Source of the DNA: a virus
Length of the DNA stretch: 26,186 bases
Direction: 5' to 3' (one strand)
IMG/VR virus record: IMGVR_UViG_3300047175_000267
Span: 1-26,186 of that record
Position 1 is the stretch's first letter, and every line of letters starts with the position of its first letter. A program made the position numbers and the translations under genes. This document shows, one piece after another, positions 1 through 24,674 of this stretch. The notes under the pieces were generated by a model. The model was not told where the DNA came from and searched no databases. It worked only from the letters and a program-made list of their open reading frames with translations.

Positions 1-273
1 ATGGTAGATCAAGCGCTCGGCACGATTGGGCATTGGATTGCTTGGTTGCTGGCTTTTGTGTTTGGGCTGTTCGCGGTGGTTGAGGATGCCGTGCGGCGGC
101 TGATGGATCAGTTGCACATTGCCGCTGGCATGCAGACGGTGATTTTGGTGTTGCTGACGGTGGCGCTGATCATTCTGGCGATCCGCGTGTTCGGCGGGAT
201 TTTCCGAATCTTGCTGATGGCGTTTCTGGTGCTGTTGCTGATCCACGTGGTGCTGCACCAGGGGCGCATTTAG
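1..273 (+). CDS. small multi-pass membrane protein, unknown function
   Basis: This 90-residue protein is almost entirely hydrophobic. One helix lies at about residues 8-28 and a long hydrophobic stretch, probably two helices, at about 44-86. A charged linker (VEDAVRRLMDQ) separates them and the tail is short and basic. It is the only credible + strand gene here. Its TAG stop overlaps the TAA stop of the minus-strand late block (270-273), so the two are convergent. The ATG is at base 1, so the ribosome binding site and any longer start cannot be judged. It could be a host gene flanking a prophage, or a phage membrane or lysis accessory protein. The opposite orientation favours a gene outside the late operon. 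No family is recognised. Confidence 0.55.
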   Translation: MVDQALGTIGHWIAWLLAFVFGLFAVVEDAVRRLMDQLHIAAGMQTVILVLLTVALIILAIRVFGGIFRILLMAFLVLLLIHVVLHQGRI

Positions 274-766: not shown

Positions 767-1090
767 TCAGTTGAGGTGCGGCCAACGGCCGGTCGCGATC
801 GTGAACAAGCCGAGGCCGACCAGCCACAACAGGCCGCGGGTGAGCAAGGACGTCCACCATGTAAGTGTTTCTCGTGATGCGAATTGATCGGAGGCTTTTT
901 CAAACGCGGCGACGATCGCGTTGCCGAGTTTCTCGGCCAGCGCGTCCATGCCGTCGTCGAGCTTGTCGAGGCGGGTGTTCAGCTCGGTGATGGCGCGATC
1001 GTTGGATTGGCGCAGATCGCGCAGGATGTCGTCGCGCGCCTCGGCACGCGCTTCCACGCGGGCCAGGCGGGTTTCGATGGTTTCGGGCAC
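767..1090 (-). CDS. XhlA-like coiled-coil membrane protein (possible lysis accessory)
   Basis: The protein has 107 residues. Residues about 5-55 form a charged heptad-rich helix (ETRLARVEARAEARDD, then ELNTRLDKLDDGMDALAEKL). A single C-terminal membrane helix at about 80-100 follows (LLTRGLLWLVGLGLFTIA). This coil-then-anchor layout resembles the XhlA/haemolysin family of phage membrane proteins that work with holins in lysis; the assignment rests on architecture, not on a diagnostic motif. The start is GTG, 3 nt after the stop of the 110-residue gene, with only a weak Shine-Dalgarno, so expression is probably coupled. Another possibility is a fibre-associated or superinfection-exclusion membrane protein. 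Confidence 0.6.
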   Translation of the reverse strand: MPETIETRLARVEARAEARDDILRDLRQSNDRAITELNTRLDKLDDGMDALAEKLGNAIVAAFEKASDQFASRETLTWWTSLLTRGLLWLVGLGLFTIATGRWPHLN

Positions 1091-1460: not shown

Positions 1461-4400
1461 CTACATCACCTCGACCGAAACGACACGGGCGACCCATTTG
1501 ATGGTGGTGCTGGCGGCGTAGCCGGAATTGATGGTCAAACCGCCATTGGTGGTGTCGGCGGCGAGCGTGGGCGCGGTCCAGCCGCTGACCGTGCCGGTGC
1601 TGCCGCCGGCGGTCAGCGTGGTGGACGACAGCGACGTGGCCGAGGCGCTGGCGCCGCGCGCGAGTAGCACGTCGCGCAGCACCCAGGTGGCGGCGGCGTT
1701 GTTGGCGGCGCTGAAGCCGACGATTTCGATGTTGAGCTTCGCCACCTGGTTGTTTTGCAAATCGACCACGTTGGCCGCGCCGGCGGCGTTGCCATCGGCG
1801 GTGAGGCGTACCGCGGTGCCGGTGGTGCTGGTGGCGCGCAGCACGGTTTCGTAGCGCTGCGCGTCGCCGGCGGTGGTGTTGTAGCCGCTGGCCAGCACGC
1901 CGCCGCCGTAGCGGCCCCAATCGCGCGCCTGGGTGCCGAAAGCGTGCGAACCGGACCCTGACAGGGTGTTGGAAATGCCGGCGGCGAATGCGGCCGATCC
2001 GCTGACGGTGTTGCCGCTGCCGAACGCCACGGAATACTGGCCGCTGGCCACCTGGGCGGCGCCGCTGCGGTATTGCTGCGCATCGAACGCGCCCAGGCCG
2101 CGGCTGTTGCCGGGTGTGGCGGAGCCGCCCTGGATCACGATCGGCGCGTAACTGCCGGTGGTAAGCGTGCCGAGGAAGGTGATGGCGCCGCTGGCGCGCG
2201 CGATAGACAGCGGCGTGTTGAGCAGATTGCCGCCATCGTCGTACGCGCGCACCGAAAAGGTGCTGCCGGCGTTTGGATAGAACGAGATCGTCTCGCCCAG
2301 CGTGACCGATGCGGCCGCCGAGATGGTGACGGTGGTGGCGGTGACGTTGGTGACCAGCGTGCCGGCGGCAACGCCCGCGCCGCCGACCGAATTGCCGTTG
2401 CTGACCCCGGTGGTGGCGGCGAAGGTGAGCGTGGTGCCGCTACTGGCCGCGGTGGTGGGCAGATTGACGGTGGTGCCCTCGGCGTCGCCCTGGGTCATCA
2501 GGTTCCAGCGCGAGACCCCGGCGGTTTGATAGACTATCTGGCGCGGCGTGGCGGCGGCGGCATTCAGCGCGGCGGTGACGGTGCCGCCAGCAGAGCTGCC
2601 GGCTGTGAACGCGGTGAGGCCCGAAATGGTGCCGCCTGTAACGGCGACCGCGCTTGCCGCCTGCGTGGCCATGCTGCCCAGGCCGGAAATGGCGGTGCTG
2701 GGAATGGTCGAACTAGCCGTGGCTGCGCTGCCGCCATTGGCAATCATGTAGCCGATGAGACCCTGAACGGTGAGCGAGGTGGCGGAGACCATGGTTCCGC
2801 CGATCGCGCCGCCGGTGACCGCGACACTGGCAGCATTCTGGCTCGCCATGCTGCCGAGGCTGGCAAGCGCGGTGGCGACGTAGGCGGTGGAGGCGGCTTT
2901 GGCGCTGTTATCGCCGGCGATGGCTGTGCCCACCAGTGGCGGTGCAGCGAAACTGACCGTGCCGGTGGCGCGAGTGATGGTGACCGGCGTGGAGAGCAGC
3001 ACGCCGCTATCGCTATAGGCGGCGACGATGAAATCCGAGCCAGCGTTGGAGCCCGATTCCGCGGTGGCGTTGGCGGCCAGGTTCCAGCGCGTGGTGCTGG
3101 CGGTTTGATAAACCAGTTGGCGCGCGCTGCCGGCGGCCGCATCGATAAAGCTGCTGACGGCGCCGCCGCTGTCAGTGCCCACCTTGAGCAGGCTGAGCCC
3201 CTGCGCGGTGCCGCCGGTGATGGCCACCGCGCTGGCGGATTGGCTCGCCATGCTGCCGAGGCCGGAAATATCCGTGGTGCTCAGGGTAACCGCACCGGTG
3301 CGGCCGGCCACGCTGATCACCTCGCTGGCGAGCCCATCGAGTTTTTCCCAACTGGCGCCGTTAAAGGCGGCGTGGTCGCCCGCGTTCCACTGGCTGATGC
3401 CGTCGAGCGTGGTGCCGCCGGCGGTGCTGACGGTGTAATAGAAACCTTTGGTGCCGGTGCCGCTGGCCAGCGTGGGTGTATTGGTGGCGGCGTTCCAGGC
3501 ACCTTGGTAATTCAACGCGCCTTGTACCGTGGCGGGCAATTGCGCGGTGGGCACATGGCCGGTGCTATCCAGCGAAGCAACGCCGTTGGCGGCGCCGACC
3601 GCGCTTTGTGGCACGCCGCCGCCGCTGCCGATCGCCGCGGCGACGAACGCGGTGGTGGCCACATTGGTGGAGTTATCGCCGGAGGGCGGCGTGGGCGCGG
3701 TGGCGCTGTTGGAAACCGCGAGCGTGGTGATGTTGACCTGGCCGGTGGCGCGGGTGATCAGGAATGGCTGGCCGAGTGTGGGGGCGAGCGGCGCGCCGGT
3801 ATCGTCGTAGGGCAGCAGCGCGAAATCCGAACCGGCATTAGTATAGAGCAGCACTGAGGCGCCGGAATTGATGAACTGCGTCGCCGGCTGCGACACATGC
3901 ACGCCGGTGGTGCCATTGAATGCGGCCACCGTGGTGCCGCTGGGGAATCCGTTGACGCTGACGAACATGCCCAGCGAAATACCGGCTATGCTCGTCAGCG
4001 GAATATCGCTGCCTCCGGCTGGAACGTTTCCGGAGGTGGTGACGCTGACCGCGTTTTCCGGCGTGCCCTCCACCCCCTCCACCCAGCGCGGCGAGCTCGC
4101 GCTTTCATAGACGATCTGGCGCGCGTAGCCGGCGGCGGCGTCGATCACCAGGCTGGCGCTGACCGAGGTATCCGTGCCGACCTCAAGCGCCGACAATCCG
4201 GTGATCGACCCACCGGTGATGGTGACATCGTTGGAGTTCTGCGAGGAGATGGTGCCGTTGGCGGTGCCGCTGCCGAGCTGCTGGAACCAGGTGGCGTTGG
4301 CGGCATTCCAGAAGAACTCCACCGACGCGTTGGCCGTCAACTGGAACGCCACGCCGTTGTTGACGACGGTGCCGGATGCCCCTGTGACGGTCAGCGCGGT

Positions 4401-7229
4401 GATGGTCTTGCTAGTCCAGACGGAGATTTTTTCGCCATCGGCCAGGGCCGCTGGCAAGGTGATGCTGCCGGTTGCCAGCGCTCCGGCCGGGCGCAGCAGC
4501 AACGTTGAGCAATTGGCCGGAATGGTGATGGAAAAGCCGTTGCCAGGGGCGCTGGTGACGTAGCTTTGATCGGCCGTGGCGCCATAACTCACCACCGGGC
4601 TGCCGGCGGCGCCGGGGCTGCCCAGATACGTCGCGCCGCTGGCCTGCCCGGTGAGTTGGATGGCGCCGTTGGCATCTGCGCCGCCGGCGGTGACGGAAAC
4701 CGGGCTGCCGGACAGCGATCCCTTCACGGCGACGTAGTTTACCGCCGAGACCTGGCGGTTGGCGCGCAGTTGCTCCTCGTTGAATGCGTTGGTCAGCAAC
4801 GAGACCGGGCTAGTGCCCACCGCGGTAACGCCGAACCTGGTGCCGCCGCCGCTGCCGGTGGCCGAGGGCTGCACGCCAACATAACCGGCCGAGGCGCTGC
4901 ACGCCACGGGCATGATGCCAATGGTAGCGCCGGCGCGGTAATTGGCCGGGGCGAAGCCGTTATAGGTAAAATCCGTCTTATCCCAGTTGTTGTTCAGATC
5001 GTGCACGTTGGTGGTGCCGGTGCCGATAATCGGCGCCGAGCCTTGGGTGGATTGGCTGGTGTTGCCGATCAGCACGACGTTGCCGGAGGTGGTTTCCACA
5101 TCGATCGGCGCACTGAGGCTGCGGAAGGTGCAGTTGCTGATGGTGGCGCCGGTGCAGGCGGTGATCTGAATCCCGGTGTTGCTGATGCCGGCGTTGGAAG
5201 ACTGGAAATCCACCGATTCTAGACGGATGTTGGCGTTAGGCGTGTTGAACTGGAAGCCGTAATAGGGACCGACGCCGCCGGTGGTGTGGCCGAGCGCGAG
5301 GCAGCGGATATCATCGAATGACAGGTTGGAGATATTGCTGCCGGTGATGGCGGCCAGCGAGCCGTTGACGAAAGGGATGGTGATGTTGGCGAAGCTGGCG
5401 TTGAAATTCACGCCGGCGGGCGCCGGATTGTTGATCAGGATTGCCGTGGTGTCCGGCTCTCCGGTCTGGTTGAAATAGATCGGGTACCAGGTGCCGCCGG
5501 TGAAGCGGGTGCTGAACATCGCGCAACCCGGGTCGCCCTGCAGCACGGTGGGTACGGTATCGAAGCCGGTGTTGGCGAACGCCGAGACATCCATGGTGCC
5601 GGCGGCGAGCCAGATGCCGCGCGAGCTGCCATACACATAATTGTTCGACGACAGGATGCCGCCCACGGTGGTAGTGGAGGCGGTGGTGGCGGTGCCGTTG
5701 CCCACCACCTTCAGCCAGGTGCCCTGGGTGTTGGTGAAATTGCGCAGATTGTAGGTGGGGCCCACGCTGACCACGCTGCCAAACACGCCCCAGGTGAACA
5801 GGCAGTTGGAGATGAACACCACCTCCGGGACGTTGGAGAGAGTAAAGCAGTTATGGATGGCGTAGATCGTACAGCGCTCAAAAATGCAGTTGCCGACGAC
5901 GGCGACAGTGCTCAGCGCGGTGAAGAAATCGTAGCAATTGGTCACTTGGCAATCGACGAAGTTGAAATAGACGATATTCTGGGCCGGGGATTGCTGGGCG
6001 AATAACGGCGGATAGACGATCGGCAGGTTGCCGTTCCCAGCGGTGGCGGCCTCGGTCTGGTTGGGCCAAAAGAAGTTGATGCCCTGGAACTGCACGTTGG
6101 GGCCGATCAGGAACGGCGTGTTGGTGGTGCCGGTGAACCAGAGCTGGCTGCCTTCATGGCCGTAGCCGGAGGGGCTATCGTAATCGCGGATGCCGTCGCC
6201 GTAGATGCAGATGTTCTGCAAGTTCTGCTGGGCAGCGTCGGTGAGCAGGATGGGGCCACCGGAGGGAATATACAGCTTCAGTTGCTGCGCGATCGCGGTC
6301 TGACAGGCGGCGACGAACCTTGCGCTGTCGTCGGTGGTGCCGTTGCGGGCGAGGCCGAAATCGTTGATGTTCAGCGTATCGGCAAAATGGGCCGCCAGCG
6401 TACGCGGCACCGCGCCGCTGAAATTGGTGGTGGCTTCGGCGGTGCTGACCGAGGCGCCGGAGATGGTGCCGCCGGTGAGATTGACCGCGCTCGCCGATTG
6501 GGTGGCGATGGAGCCCAGACCGCCGATATCCGCCGTGGTGAGCACCACGTTGCCGGTGCGGCCCGCCACGCTGAGCACCGGCGAGGAGCCGCCGCCGCCA
6601 TTTGGCAACAAGGCGGTTGGCACCAGGCCATTGCTATCCAGACCGGCGTAGCCGTTCGGCTGGTCCTTGTTGGCGGTTTGCTCGGCGCCGGTGATCCGGC
6701 TGTCATTGCCGGCGGCAACGGTGCCGCTGACGGTACCGACATTCACCGAGAGCTGCCCCGAGGCGTTGATGACCAGCGCGTTGCCCACCGCAACCGCACC
6801 GATGCTGTTCCCGGTGGCGGCCACGGGGGTGGAGGTGATCGTGCCGTTGGCATCGATGCTAATGTTCTCGCCGGCGGAATACAGGCCGCGCAGCAGCGAA
6901 ATCGGCATGAGCTGGGCTTCGCCGGTCGTGTCGTTGAGCAGCAAGGTGTTGTTCAGATCGAGCGTCTCGGCCTGCGGGAACGAGGTGCTATCCACGTACA
7001 GCACGTCGTTCTGCAGGATCAGGCCGGTGCCGAGCGCAATCGATTCCGGGCCGCCAGGGCCGGGGCTGACGCGGCCGAGCAGCGATCCGGTGGCAATGGT
7101 GATCTCCTGCTGGGTGCCGGCGAGCAGCGTGCCGACCTGCACCGAGCGCGATACGCCGCCCTGGCTGAGCGCCAGTTCATCGGTATCGTTAACCTCGGTG
7201 GCGGGCGGAAGTTGAGCGATCGTGGGCAT
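1461..7229 (-). CDS. giant tail fibre / tailspike with beta-helix, repeated modules and YadA-like repeats
   Basis: At 1922 residues this is the largest gene in the window. Residues 1-80 form an anchor shared with the neighbouring 847-residue tailspike (MPTIxQLPxAT, SQGGV, LLGR, IALGxGL). Residues about 225-260 hold a SVAGRTG module. A pectate-lyase-3-type right-handed beta-helix opens near 288 (NDFGLARNGTTDDSARF) and runs to about 745. After it comes a chain of duplicated modules: five GS(M/I)A(S/T)Q...TGG motifs, two GDNS...ATTAFVA motifs and three copies of a RQ(I/L)VY...RW domain. YadA-head-like repeats (SVAFGSGNTVSGSAAFAAG) lie at about 1719-1774. The last 130 residues form a beta-rich domain ending in WVARVVSVEV, of a type I recall from phage tail proteins. 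I see no S74 peptidase chaperone. AAGGGGA precedes the ATG. It probably makes a trimeric adhesin with a possible polysaccharide-cleaving helix; the substrate is unknown. Confidence 0.9.
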   Translation of the reverse strand: MPTIAQLPPATEVNDTDELALSQGGVSRSVQVGTLLAGTQQEITIATGSLLGRVSPGPGGPESIALGTGLILQNDVLYVDSTSFPQAETLDLNNTLLLNDTTGEAQLMPISLLRGLYSAGENISIDANGTITSTPVAATGNSIGAVAVGNALVINASGQLSVNVGTVSGTVAAGNDSRITGAEQTANKDQPNGYAGLDSNGLVPTALLPNGGGGSSPVLSVAGRTGNVVLTTADIGGLGSIATQSASAVNLTGGTISGASVSTAEATTNFSGAVPRTLAAHFADTLNINDFGLARNGTTDDSARFVAACQTAIAQQLKLYIPSGGPILLTDAAQQNLQNICIYGDGIRDYDSPSGYGHEGSQLWFTGTTNTPFLIGPNVQFQGINFFWPNQTEAATAGNGNLPIVYPPLFAQQSPAQNIVYFNFVDCQVTNCYDFFTALSTVAVVGNCIFERCTIYAIHNCFTLSNVPEVVFISNCLFTWGVFGSVVSVGPTYNLRNFTNTQGTWLKVVGNGTATTASTTTVGGILSSNNYVYGSSRGIWLAAGTMDVSAFANTGFDTVPTVLQGDPGCAMFSTRFTGGTWYPIYFNQTGEPDTTAILINNPAPAGVNFNASFANITIPFVNGSLAAITGSNISNLSFDDIRCLALGHTTGGVGPYYGFQFNTPNANIRLESVDFQSSNAGISNTGIQITACTGATISNCTFRSLSAPIDVETTSGNVVLIGNTSQSTQGSAPIIGTGTTNVHDLNNNWDKTDFTYNGFAPANYRAGATIGIMPVACSASAGYVGVQPSATGSGGGTRFGVTAVGTSPVSLLTNAFNEEQLRANRQVSAVNYVAVKGSLSGSPVSVTAGGADANGAIQLTGQASGATYLGSPGAAGSPVVSYGATADQSYVTSAPGNGFSITIPANCSTLLLRPAGALATGSITLPAALADGEKISVWTSKTITALTVTGASGTVVNNGVAFQLTANASVEFFWNAANATWFQQLGSGTANGTISSQNSNDVTITGGSITGLSALEVGTDTSVSASLVIDAAAGYARQIVYESASSPRWVEGVEGTPENAVSVTTSGNVPAGGSDIPLTSIAGISLGMFVSVNGFPSGTTVAAFNGTTGVHVSQPATQFINSGASVLLYTNAGSDFALLPYDDTGAPLAPTLGQPFLITRATGQVNITTLAVSNSATAPTPPSGDNSTNVATTAFVAAAIGSGGGVPQSAVGAANGVASLDSTGHVPTAQLPATVQGALNYQGAWNAATNTPTLASGTGTKGFYYTVSTAGGTTLDGISQWNAGDHAAFNGASWEKLDGLASEVISVAGRTGAVTLSTTDISGLGSMASQSASAVAITGGTAQGLSLLKVGTDSGGAVSSFIDAAAGSARQLVYQTASTTRWNLAANATAESGSNAGSDFIVAAYSDSGVLLSTPVTITRATGTVSFAAPPLVGTAIAGDNSAKAASTAYVATALASLGSMASQNAASVAVTGGAIGGTMVSATSLTVQGLIGYMIANGGSAATASSTIPSTAISGLGSMATQAASAVAVTGGTISGLTAFTAGSSAGGTVTAALNAAAATPRQIVYQTAGVSRWNLMTQGDAEGTTVNLPTTAASSGTTLTFAATTGVSNGNSVGGAGVAAGTLVTNVTATTVTISAAASVTLGETISFYPNAGSTFSVRAYDDGGNLLNTPLSIARASGAITFLGTLTTGSYAPIVIQGGSATPGNSRGLGAFDAQQYRSGAAQVASGQYSVAFGSGNTVSGSAAFAAGISNTLSGSGSHAFGTQARDWGRYGGGVLASGYNTTAGDAQRYETVLRATSTTGTAVRLTADGNAAGAANVVDLQNNQVAKLNIEIVGFSAANNAAATWVLRDVLLARGASASATSLSSTTLTAGGSTGTVSGWTAPTLAADTTNGGLTINSGYAASTTIKWVARVVSVEVM
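2170..2580 (-). repeat. fibre internal module, copy 3 (with inserted subdomain)
   Basis: This part of the giant fibre (about residues 1550-1686) begins with AAAATPRQIVYQTAGVSRWN and ends with NAGSTFSVRAYDDGGNLLNT followed by SIARASGAITF. Between the RW motif and NAGS sits an extra subdomain of about 60 residues that is rich in threonine, serine, valine and alanine. Bounds are approximate, from reading the translation. Confidence 0.8.
2945..3160 (-). repeat. fibre internal module, copy 2 (short form)
   Basis: This part of the giant fibre (about residues 1357-1428) runs from IDAAAGSARQLVYQTASTTRW through NAGSDFIVAAYSDSGVLLST to ITRATGTVSF. It has only a few residues between RW and NAGS, so it lacks the subdomain inserted in copies 1 and 3. 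Confidence 0.8.
3730..4160 (-). repeat. fibre internal module, copy 1 (with inserted subdomain)
   Basis: This part of the giant fibre (about residues 1024-1167) runs from IDAAAGYARQIVYESASSPRW through NAGSDFALLPYDDTGAPL to LITRATGQVNI. An insertion of about 60 residues (SVTTSGNVPAGGSDIPLTS onward) lies between RW and NAGS, at the same site as in copy 3. Confidence 0.8.
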
Positions 7230-22123: not shown

Positions 22124-23446
22124 TCAGCCCGCGTGCTCGATCATCACCGCCCGCTTGAAGGCGGCGTTGGTGGCGGTGGGAATGGTGGTGGGGTTGGTGG
22201 TGGTGTCGGAAGGCGTGCAGAAGCCGCCGATCCAATACCAGCTCTGCGCGATGATCTGCTGCAACCGGTCGATCGGCTCGCGCGTCACCATCGCCACGCT
22301 ATCGATCACCTGCACGATCGCGTCGCTGGGGGCCACGTCGCTGGCCGCCATGCCGGCGTAGTCGCCTTCGATCAGCGCGCCCTGCCCGGTCACGATCGGC
22401 CGGCGTACAAAGACGTTGGCAAGCGTGGGGTGCGCCTGCACGAAAGCCTCCGTGGTGGGGCAGAAACGCAGGCCGAGGAAATCGTTGGTCATGCCCTGGC
22501 GGAACACCTGGTTCGCGCTGGTCGCGCCCTGGAACAACTGCTTGAAATCAGGATCGGCGAACAATTGCCGCGCCGATACCGGGTCGAGGTAGCAATTATA
22601 AGCGCCCTCGATCATCGGCACCGCGTTGAGCCGCAGTTTGGAGACGGCGTCGAGCAGGTTGCTCATGGTCAAGGTGTCCGAGGCCGTCAACGCGGCGGTG
22701 GTGGTGCGGCTCGATGGCCGCACGATCACGCTGGCGGTGGCGGCCTGCACCGCGTTACCGGCGGTCGCGTCACTCACCAGCACGTTGCCGCTGAAGGTCA
22801 GCACGCCGGAAATGCCGTTCGGCGCGGTGGAGACGTTGGTCAGATCGGGCGTGGCGCCCACCAGCGTGTAGGCGGTCGCCCCAACCGTCACCGTCAGCGT
22901 GGTGGTCGATCCCACGGGGGTCTGCACGCCGTTGACGAAGGCGTATTGAAAGCCGCGGATATCGTCCACGCTCACCGTCGGTCCGGCCGAGCCGGCCGTT
23001 ACCCGCACCCGCGTGTTGCCGCCGAAATAGGCGTTGAACAGCGCGTTGCGGGCAATCTCGTCCAGGCTGCGCGCGGCCTGTTCGCCATTGATCGCCGCGT
23101 TCAGCAGGAACTGGCTGGCGATACCCACGCGTGAGGTCACCATGTTCAGATCGGTGGTGGCGGCGTAGGAGTTGATGCTGATGGTGTATTGCTCGATGTT
23201 GAAGCTGGCCGGCGTCAACCCGTTATCCAGGTTGGTGTTGGTGGCGGGCGCCAGCGGCGTGGTGATGGAGGGTTTCAGCCCCGCGCGCGTCTTGGTCAGC
23301 GTCTCGCCGATGCCAACGGCGAATTCTTCGCGGTCGGCGCAGGCGCGATAGCCGAGTTTGGAGTGCAACGCTGCCTCGAACTCGCGTTCCAGAAAGCCGA
23401 GCTGGATGATCGGCTGTAACGCCGCCGGAAAATTTTGAATGCCCAT
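22124..23446 (-). CDS. major capsid protein (HK97-type fold, apparent inserted beta-rich region)
   Basis: The protein has 440 residues. The N-arm (QLGFLEREFEAALHSKLGY), the helix-rich spine (SRVGIASQFLLNAAINGEQAARSLDEIARNALFNAYFGG, about 105-143) and the C-terminal region (CYLDPVSARQLFADPDFKQLF, then NDFLGLRFCPTTEAF, IIAQSWYWIGGFC) read as an HK97-like capsid close to the N4 gp56 family. Residues about 164-245 (GFQYAFVNGVQTPVGSTTTL through NAVQAATASVIVRPSSRT) are a beta-rich stretch that looks inserted between spine and P-domain. No cleavable prohead segment or protease gene accompanies it. A 61-nt leader separates it from the upstream gene. Confidence 0.88.
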   Translation of the reverse strand: MGIQNFPAALQPIIQLGFLEREFEAALHSKLGYRACADREEFAVGIGETLTKTRAGLKPSITTPLAPATNTNLDNGLTPASFNIEQYTISINSYAATTDLNMVTSRVGIASQFLLNAAINGEQAARSLDEIARNALFNAYFGGNTRVRVTAGSAGPTVSVDDIRGFQYAFVNGVQTPVGSTTTLTVTVGATAYTLVGATPDLTNVSTAPNGISGVLTFSGNVLVSDATAGNAVQAATASVIVRPSSRTTTAALTASDTLTMSNLLDAVSKLRLNAVPMIEGAYNCYLDPVSARQLFADPDFKQLFQGATSANQVFRQGMTNDFLGLRFCPTTEAFVQAHPTLANVFVRRPIVTGQGALIEGDYAGMAASDVAPSDAIVQVIDSVAMVTREPIDRLQQIIAQSWYWIGGFCTPSDTTTNPTTIPTATNAAFKRAVMIEHAG

Positions 23447-23507: not shown

Positions 23508-23696
23508 TCAGGCCGATTGCACCGCCGCGTGATCGGTGGCGAGCTGCGTGGTTAGCGCCGCCCATTGCTCTGCGGTGGGCTCGGCGCCGCTGGCCAGCAT
23601 GGCCTTGATGCTGGCGAACAACGCCATCGCCTGCGGCGTATCCTGCACCACGGTCTCGATCATGCCGAGCAAGGCCAGGATGGTTGCAAGGCTCAT
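23508..23696 (-). CDS. 62-residue helical protein, unknown
   Basis: This small protein looks like two helices: SLATILALLGMIETVVQDTP followed by QAMALFASIKAMLASGAEP and TAEQWAALTTQLATDHAAV. The first half is amphipathic or hydrophobic without being a clear membrane helix. The start at 23696 is chosen because a GGGGG run lies about eight bases upstream and the stop of the lipoprotein gene is immediately before; an open frame to 23720 would overlap it. No function is proposed. It may act with the adjacent membrane protein and lipoprotein, whose genes form a unit with it between scaffold and capsid. Confidence 0.65.
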   Translation of the reverse strand: MSLATILALLGMIETVVQDTPQAMALFASIKAMLASGAEPTAEQWAALTTQLATDHAAVQSA

Positions 23697-23697
23697 G

Positions 23698-24015
23698 TTA
23701 TTTTCCCCCATGCTGGACAAGGTATTGGCTGAATGCTTTCATCGCCGCCTGGGCGGCAGCCAGCTCGTCGGCGGTGGCGCTGTCGCCATTGGCGGCCAGC
23801 GGCTGAATGGCGGTATAGGCGCGCGCATCCAGCGTCTTGATCTGCGCGATCACGGCGGCGTCGGCGGCGGGCGATTGTTCATAGGCCGCCGCCAGCTTTT
23901 CCGCCGTGTCCAGAGTTGCCGTCAGCGCATAGGCGCCCTGGCTGAGGCCGGTGGCGCCGCCGGTGCAACCGGCAAGAGCGAGGCAAACCGCGGCGATGGG
24001 TGCGTGGCGTGTCAT
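23698..24015 (-). CDS. lipoprotein encoded inside head module (possible o-spanin or moron)
   Basis: The protein has 105 residues. The N-terminus TRHAPIAAVCLALAGCTGGA is a lipoprotein signal with the lipobox L-A-G-C at residues 14-17. Threonine at +2 suggests outer-membrane sorting. The mature part is helical (YALTATLDTAEKLAAAYEQSP, AADAAVIAQIKTLDARAYTAI, ADELAAAQAAMKAFSQYLVQH) and lacks membrane segments. Its 17-residue signal is short but canonical. Outer-membrane spanins are small lipoproteins, but those are usually proline-rich and overlap an inner-membrane partner, which is not clearly so here. Superinfection exclusion is another possibility. Confidence 0.7.
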   Translation of the reverse strand: MTRHAPIAAVCLALAGCTGGATGLSQGAYALTATLDTAEKLAAAYEQSPAADAAVIAQIKTLDARAYTAIQPLAANGDSATADELAAAQAAMKAFSQYLVQHGGK

Positions 24016-24037
24016 AGGTCCCTCTATGTTCGTAGCG

Positions 24038-24262
24038 TTATGCGCTGGGTTTGACTGGTGCAGCGTTGGCGTAGTTGCCGGCCACCAGGCGCAGCACCGC
24101 GTAGGCCGTGCGGTACCAACCTGGGCTGGCCGCGCCCGCCACCGGCAGCCACGGCATCAGGCCGTGCGCGATCAGCGCGATCAGCACCGCGCCGGCGCCG
24201 ATGGCGCTTGCCGCGCGCACGCCGAACACGGCGGTCAGCGCCGCCATGGCATTGGCATCCAT
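24038..24262 (-). CDS. small membrane protein (holin-like)
   Basis: The protein has 74 residues: MDANAMAALTAVFGVRAASAIGAGAV gives one hydrophobic stretch, LIALIAHGLMPWLPVAGAA continues it, and the tail GWYRTAYAVLRLVAGNYANA is amphipathic with a basic face. The WYRTAYAVLR-VAGNYANA ending is reminiscent of short phage holin-type proteins from HP1-like or related elements, though the match is weak. AGGAG lies about eight bases before the ATG at 24262; the longer frame to 24328 is less likely. It stands next to the lipoprotein gene, so a small lysis or membrane unit is possible. Confidence 0.55.
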   Translation of the reverse strand: MDANAMAALTAVFGVRAASAIGAGAVLIALIAHGLMPWLPVAGAASPGWYRTAYAVLRLVAGNYANAAPVKPSA

Positions 24263-24281: not shown

Positions 24282-24674
24282 TTAGCGGCGCTTGAGCAAA
24301 TCGGCGCGCGCGCTACGCCATTCCTCATGGCTCATTTCGGTCGCCAGTTTCTGTTGCGGCGCCTGGGCCGCCGGCGCGCGCGCGCCGGAGCTGGTGGAAA
24401 CGCCGCCGAACAACCAGGGCTTGGCGCGTTTAAGCTGCTGCATCAGCGCCGCGGCTCCTGGAACCTCGCCCTTGTCGTCGATGCTGAGCGTGTCGATCTC
24501 GGCGAGCTTAATGCCGTCCAGATCCACCATGCCCGCCCGCAACGCCTCGGCTTTCAGCTCGGCGCGGATCAACCGTTGTTCGGCCGCGCGCACCGTTTCG
24601 GCCAGATCGCGTTCGGCCGCCTGCGCCCGCGCGCGCCAATCCTCCGCATCGGAGTTCAGGTCGTCGTTGCTCAT
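24282..24674 (-). CDS. capsid scaffold protein, GP20-like
   Basis: The protein has 130 residues. A long charged helix (EDWRARAQAAERDLAETVRAAEQRLIRAELKAEALRAG) is followed by GMVDLDGIKLAEIDTLSIDD and KGEVPGAAALMQQLKRAKPWLFGG, the sequence pattern of GP20-like minor structural/scaffold proteins (AELKA-A--AG--D-D--KLLD ... G-V-G----LEELKK-KPYLF). The C-terminus is low-complexity then LATEMSHEEWRSARADLLKRR, a basic tail expected to bind capsid protein. The ATG overlaps the portal stop as ATGA. Lengths of about 120-200 are usual. Portal followed directly by scaffold is a common head layout. Confidence 0.78.
   Translation of the reverse strand: MSNDDLNSDAEDWRARAQAAERDLAETVRAAEQRLIRAELKAEALRAGMVDLDGIKLAEIDTLSIDDKGEVPGAAALMQQLKRAKPWLFGGVSTSSGARAPAAQAPQQKLATEMSHEEWRSARADLLKRR

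Follow-up and report, generated by a model that had tools for sequence, protein, structure and literature searches.

A transmembrane protein, lipoprotein and helical protein trio between phage scaffold and capsid genes: a candidate displaced accessory lysis module

Three small genes at the scaffold-capsid junction

The window, by which we mean the whole stretch of DNA analysed here, is a virus record of 26,186 bp with a GC content of 67%. Its late genes are arranged on the minus strand in the order portal, scaffold, a trio of small genes, capsid, and then tail sheath, baseplate and fibre-type genes. The trio begins with a gene for a transmembrane (TM) protein of 74 amino acids (positions 24038-24262, minus strand), continues with a gene for a lipoprotein of 105 amino acids (23698-24015, minus strand), and closes with a gene for a small helical protein of 62 amino acids counted from its ATG (23508-23696, minus strand). 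The upstream neighbour is a head scaffold gene (24282-24674, minus strand) that matches PF06810 above its cut-off (E 1.2e-9), and the downstream neighbour is the major capsid gene (22124-23446, minus strand; phrog_1357, E 1.7e-34). A first-pass annotation had called the three genes between these neighbours, and our analysis confirms its coordinates.

Successive genes are closely spaced (19 bases from scaffold to TM gene, then 22 to the lipoprotein gene, 1 to the helix gene and 61 to the capsid gene), and the starts of the TM and lipoprotein genes are preceded by AGGAG and GAGG, respectively. A consensus scan of the surroundings of the trio, which covers some promoter types only, gave no promoter-like or terminator-like site. 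From this spacing and the site-free scan, we infer that the trio would be co-transcribed with the head genes and expressed late, together with the capsid.

The TM protein carries one hydrophobic segment (approximately residues 13-36; best 19-residue hydropathy 1.93), followed by a Pro/Trp stretch and a C-terminal helix. The roughly 35 residues beyond the segment have a net charge of +3 and are predicted to be cytoplasmic. The C-terminal side is also the more positive one in ten TM rows, which predicts an N-out/C-in topology. An AlphaFold2 model of modest confidence (pLDDT 66) contains two helices. The lipoprotein has a signal peptide with the lipobox LAGC, whose cysteine (C17) is invariant across the four rows of alignment A1, and the model of its body (pLDDT 66) has three helices. 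By hydropathy it lacks a C-terminal hydrophobic stretch, and thus does not have the architecture of a unimolecular spanin. Beyond the lipobox, cysteine is found in none of the nine lipoproteins of alignment A8, and the TM and helix proteins of the window are cysteine-free. The family is not uniformly so, as three lipoprotein relatives outside this alignment (L313, L316 and L318) have cysteines near the C-terminus. In the helical protein, P21 and P40-T41 are conserved.

Relative to two further trio-bearing contigs (L008 and L009), substitutions in the trio are in excess at third codon positions, the same pattern as in the capsid and portal genes. For example, the lipoprotein genes of the window and L009 differ by 18, 13 and 43 substitutions at codon positions 1, 2 and 3. 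Because the substitutions cluster at third positions, we judge the trio to be under purifying selection, and hence to consist of real genes. These genes evolve faster than the head genes: the amino acid identity of the window to the two contigs is 72-80% for the trio and 97% for the capsid.

The first-pass annotation took the junction to be the usual site of a head protease or decoration gene. This is wrong for the group, in which scaffold and capsid genes are normally adjacent. Among the 80 best of 597 viral capsid relatives, the gap between them could be measured in 77 and is shorter than 200 bp in 66. It is likewise below 200 bp in 70 of 80 loci from GTDB genomes, which are the 80 best of 232 relatives there. 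Displacement of a protease or decoration gene by the trio was rejected, given that the junction is normally empty in viral and genome loci alike. Among the best 80 of the 597 viral relatives, three contigs (L007, L008 and L009) carry the trio and 77 lack it, and these three are among the 11 viral loci with a larger gap. None of the 80 GTDB capsid loci (best 80 of 232) has a trio match in the flanking DNA covered, which extends up to 10 kb on either side of the capsid gene. When viral contigs were searched with single trio proteins and with two four-row profiles, the same three contigs, or one of them, were all that came back. Where the record titles of the 80 GTDB relatives give a group, they mostly name Acetobacteraceae, Rhodospirillales or genera such as Acidocella, Rhodopila, Acidisoma and Acidiphilium; many read just Proteobacteria, and one names Nitrosovibrio.

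In a capsid tree of 81 rows, the four trio carriers, including the window, form one clade with support of 100/99. The sister of this clade, L010, is the nearest capsid relative; it lacks the trio and has a scaffold-capsid gap of 68 bp. Because the carriers form a single clade with a trio-less sister, and one label change on the tree is enough to explain the distribution, the simplest reading is that the trio was acquired once, by the ancestor of a single small clade of phages.

Other genes occupy the junction in some relatives. In one locus from an Acetobacteraceae MAG (L118), the junction holds 3.5 kb, including an ORF (3289-4314, plus strand) that matches solved endolysins and lytic enzymes (9eoi, E 1e-39) and is followed by several similar-looking secreted ORFs that reach position 5937. 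Unrelated junction genes were seen by eye at L025:2740-3120 (minus strand), L029:3002-3373 (minus strand), L117:2214-2903 (plus strand) and L152:9291-9968 (plus strand), and two of these four appear to be a similar antisense gene. Insertion at this junction seems to be a recurrent event.

Relatives of the trio and their genomic neighbours

Searches of Pfam, PHROGs and NCBIfam with the trio proteins gave no significant match, the PHROG matches of the lipoprotein reaching just E 0.17-0.37. With tblastn against 50,697 phage records, two of the proteins had no match and one had a single chance match at E 4. A lipoprotein profile found nothing significant among solved structures (best E 0.77), and a BFVD fold search gave a best E of 0.018, with zero matches at 0.001. 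Literature searches for this module turned up no description of it. The protein families of the trio are unnamed in the libraries searched, and their displacement into the head module is the unusual part of the arrangement.

Genome searches were centred on Acidiphilium iwatense (genome G026, with locus L162), which we take to belong to the Acetobacteraceae. In 299 genomes of its family, four-row profiles gave weak to moderate matches (best E 3.3e-11), some of which adjoin each other. With a nine-row lipoprotein profile, 36 of 397 genomes had matches at E <= 1e-4, in 47 places; among 289 genomes sampled from the class, 2 had a match to a nine-row helix profile. The resulting census of 53 loci comprises all 47 lipoprotein places, the 2 class matches and some further matches of the four-row profiles. 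Four loci (L260, L261, L262 and L264) were taken in for their TM matches and have no match to the lipoprotein model. Several loci are cut by contig ends (e.g. L245, L321, L323 and L325), and the endolysin models used in the census were made from genes of the same loci.

Sequence profile comparisons firmly support homology between the lipoprotein and helix families of the window and those outside it. With hhalign, the two lipoprotein families align at a probability of 99.4 (E 3.5e-21) and the helix protein aligns with its outside counterparts at 98.3 (E 1.4e-14), whereas mismatched controls (window lipoprotein with helix family; window helix with TM family) gave probabilities of 1.5 and 0.8. 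Homology between the TM protein and the outside TM genes is likely, not proven. The hhalign comparison of the window family with four outside TM rows found nothing (probability 0.3). The window TM HMM detects TM domains in L251, L260, L261 and L264 (E 1e-5 to 4e-5), and these domains have in common with the window protein an MPWLPV stretch and, further on, S, Y, L, A-N and N positions. The TM domain of L260 and L261 is followed in frame by a lipobox-like AC segment, and the sequence beyond that segment is unrecognised by the lipoprotein model.

By HMM, the lipoprotein is present in 49 of the 53 loci, and in 36 of these the helix gene comes next on the same strand. These 36 pair loci (34 from the family draws and 2 from the class draw) represent 27 genomes by hand count, 18 of them with an endolysin-linked pair, and hence are not all independent. 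A TM-model match lies just upstream of the lipoprotein in 19 of the 36 and is missing from the other 17. The recurrent order agrees with the earlier suggestion that the three genes form one unit. No more than 2 kb upstream and in the same orientation, 25 of the 36 pair loci have a muralytic or lysozyme-like gene, compared with none of the 13 lipoprotein-only loci (Fisher p 9.5e-6), a contrast that is partly one of distance, as the lipoprotein-only loci are mostly weaker, remoter matches and some lie at contig ends. In L250, the genes for a GH24 endolysin, TM protein and lipoprotein overlap by 4 bases each, as do the SLT-like, TM, lipoprotein and helix genes of L249. In L251, the TM part and the lipoprotein-model match occupy one reading frame.

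The upstream enzymes in the 25 loci are assigned to the GH24 (10), SLT-like (8), SleB-type (6) and GH108 (1) classes. Pfam backs the tested examples of GH24, GH108 and SleB-type genes (PF00959, PF05838 and PF07486, respectively). For the SLT-like class, it gave a single weak match below the cut-off (SLT_3, E 6.5e-4, in L249) and nothing in three further examples, and the L261 representative has no meaningful match among solved structures. Counting the Pfam-supported classes alone gives a conservative 17 of 36. Among the remaining pair loci, L304 and L305 have a GH24 gene within 3 kb downstream, L301 has a SleB-type match 2.8 kb upstream, and the upstream gene of L300, L313 and L316 contains the stretch RGIRNNNPGNL; Pfam gave nothing for the two such genes tested. 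Four others hold the pair among baseplate genes, with neither a TM match nor an endolysin-model match within 2 kb; this context is supported by PHROGs for L245 and L306 and was assigned by eye for L252 and L309. The last, L318, has no recognised phage context.

Related lipoproteins without a helix partner were also seen in L253, L254, L256 and L259, beside genes that look chromosomal by eye (ABC-transporter-like and response-regulator-like).

A candidate accessory lysis module and its alternatives

The explanation that we favour, and hold to be rather probable, is that the trio forms a previously undescribed accessory lysis module in phages with Acetobacteraceae-type hosts, displaced once into the head module. 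Its function is read from synteny: lysis is proposed because the lipoprotein-helix relatives follow a muralytic or lysozyme-like gene in most of the pair loci, and this synteny lends support to lysis as one of the roles first suggested for the genes. That the trio would act as one unit with an endolysin is proposed because of the same synteny, the conserved gene order, the genes that overlap by 4 bases in L249 and L250, and the ORF that joins TM and lipoprotein parts in frame. Scaffold and portal genes precede the trio in the window, with no muralytic or lysozyme-like gene within 2 kb upstream. The TM gene has no endolysin neighbour here, and an endolysin was not found among the window genes scanned.

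Each component can be given a provisional role. The TM protein, described initially as holin-like, has the size and the one clear TM segment expected of a holin. It is a candidate holin or lysis regulator, and its link to the outside genes is the weakest of the three. The lipoprotein is probably an envelope-directed factor anchored in the outer membrane, and the 62-residue protein is possibly a regulator. Late in infection, the TM protein would accumulate in the inner membrane and either permeabilise it or gate the endolysin. Disruption or detachment of the outer envelope would be aided by the lipoprotein, a three-helix bundle in its model with a putative outer-membrane anchor, and the small protein made along with it might tune the timing. 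Position before the capsid gene would tie the dose of the trio to capsid expression, while the endolysin would stay distal, as in the relatives. Counting against a lysis module are the TM homology, which is its weakest link, the poorly supported SLT-like class, and the 4 of 36 pairs found among baseplate genes.

Known lysis systems offer partial parallels. As in the canonical Gram-negative cassette of holin, endolysin and Rz/Rz1, the relatives of the trio are small membrane protein and lipoprotein genes set tightly behind an endolysin-type gene. Unlike that cassette, the trio lacks an i-spanin, the proteins tested match no family of Pfam, PHROGs or NCBIfam significantly, and in the window the genes are located in the head module. 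The PseT.3/PseT.2 spanins of T4, which according to passages of PMC6139136 lie apart from the holin and endolysin genes, provide a precedent for a displaced trio. The T4 o-spanin family is described there as having conserved cysteines and a beta-alpha-beta stretch, whereas the lipoprotein of the window is all-helical in a model of modest confidence and has no cysteine in its mature part. Passages of PMC9239132 describe a phage Mu lysis region with the SAR endolysin gp22, the spanins gp23/23.1 and the releasin gp25, and, as in the relatives of the trio, a small N-out/C-in TM protein is encoded a few genes downstream of the endolysin. In contrast to the SAR endolysin of Mu, the GH24 proteins of L248 and L250 have no obvious N-terminal TM segment by eye, and the trio itself matches no named family. 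Finally, a coiled-coil gene with a hydrophobic C-terminus precedes the endolysin-type gene of L249 and weakly matches XhlA (PF10779, E 0.0027, below the curated cut-off). This gene lies outside the trio, and the other scanned proteins of its kind are unmatched.

An alternative that we regard as unlikely is a superinfection-exclusion or lysogenic-conversion (moron) cassette, in which the lipoprotein would coat the outer membrane or mask a receptor, the TM protein would block DNA entry, and the genes would be carried along in late operons, frequently downstream of lysis genes. Small exclusion lipoproteins such as T5 Llp and phi80 Cor are similar in size to the trio lipoprotein, and a gene that follows a lysis cassette may serve lysogenic conversion, as lambda bor does. 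The faster change of the trio relative to the head genes and the four baseplate loci without a TM match or nearby endolysin would fit such a cassette. The preference for positions behind muralytic or lysozyme-like genes and the 4-base overlaps in L249 and L250 argue against it, as does the limited scan around the trio, in which a promoter-like site was not found. A distant relative points both ways, with a sub-threshold match of residues 1-30 of L255 to the Cor family (E 0.013) set against a sub-threshold match of the same protein to an Rz-like spanin family (E 0.042). Proteins of the virion or of head assembly, such as a decoration protein or scaffold helper gained at the head module, would fit the position of the trio between scaffold and capsid genes and its close spacing. 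We consider this very improbable, given a lipoprotein signal, relatives elsewhere that adjoin endolysin-type or baseplate genes, and the lack of the trio in 77 of the best 80 viral relatives and in the 80 genome loci.

A standard holin with a two-component spanin, in which the TM protein would be a holin or i-spanin and the lipoprotein an o-spanin, draws on much of the evidence for the lysis module: endolysin synteny in relatives, a lipoprotein signal, and a TM gene that adjoins the lipoprotein gene or is in frame with it. The C-terminal cysteines of L313, L316 and L318 also fit. However, the short, positively charged tail of the TM protein is predicted to be cytoplasmic rather than a periplasmic coiled coil, and a spanin family match was not significant in any library searched. 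PMC6139136 counts one or more cysteines in 507 of 528 two-component spanins, whereas the A8 lipoproteins have none beyond the lipobox and the TM and helix proteins of the window have none at all. With the i-spanin partner and, in A8, mature cysteines missing, this arrangement was rejected on its hallmarks and is quite improbable. The description of the lipoprotein as an outer-membrane spanin is unsupported in the two-component sense; the lipobox expected of such a protein is present.

The preferred reading, an accessory lysis module, can be taken a step further, although we advance this extension tentatively and with some doubt. The trio might be an undescribed kind of outer-envelope disruption system in alphaproteobacterial phages, in which a TM protein, a helical-bundle lipoprotein and a small helical regulator would perform the work of a spanin without an i-spanin, and which would be portable among lysis, baseplate and head modules. 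A table in PMC6139136 includes 91 of 677 phages of Gram-negative hosts without a recognisable spanin. A conserved, endolysin-linked lipoprotein module that lacks spanin hallmarks is a concrete candidate for outer-envelope opening in spanin-less phages. Moreover, the displaced copy of the trio suggests that lysis-type genes can settle within a head operon.

The left end of the window and the distal lysis region

The window ends ahead of its own distal lysis region. Close to its left end, a gene at 767-1090 (minus strand) encodes a coiled-coil-like protein of 107 amino acids with a hydrophobic C-terminus. A 67% relative of this gene in L178 is followed by two genes and then by a GH108 endolysin gene, and a second window gene (270-860) has a 36% match to an L178 gene shortly before the same endolysin. 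By this comparison, the gene at 767-1090 is judged to mark the approach to the usual lysis region. Two membrane-looking genes, identified by eye, follow the GH108 endolysin of L178. GH108 endolysins were found in 3 of 25 records of relatives, none of which are trio contigs. In L335, a relative with the capsid type of the window, the tail genes are followed, by eye, by a GH24 gene (E 2.7e-33), another TM gene and another lipoprotein gene. At the extreme left of the window, a convergent TM-rich ORF (1-273, plus strand) stands in place of the genes that lead on to the endolysin in L178; it is possibly a host gene or prophage edge, and the end of the window may lie near a junction because this ORF has relatives in 14 of 60 family genomes.

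Two further observations concern genes near these regions in related contigs. Directly before the GH108 endolysin of L178, a gene at 2533-3015 (minus strand) encodes a membrane protein that matches the ethylene receptor N-terminal domain model PF25487 (E 6.1e-21). The trio contig G003 carries, in L180, an EAL-domain gene (3226-4365, minus strand; PF00563, E 1.2e-49) and a DPBB_1 lytic transglycosylase-like gene (2375-2920, minus strand; PF03330, E 3.6e-19), both of which lie upstream of a terminase-like gene, on the opposite strand to the late genes.
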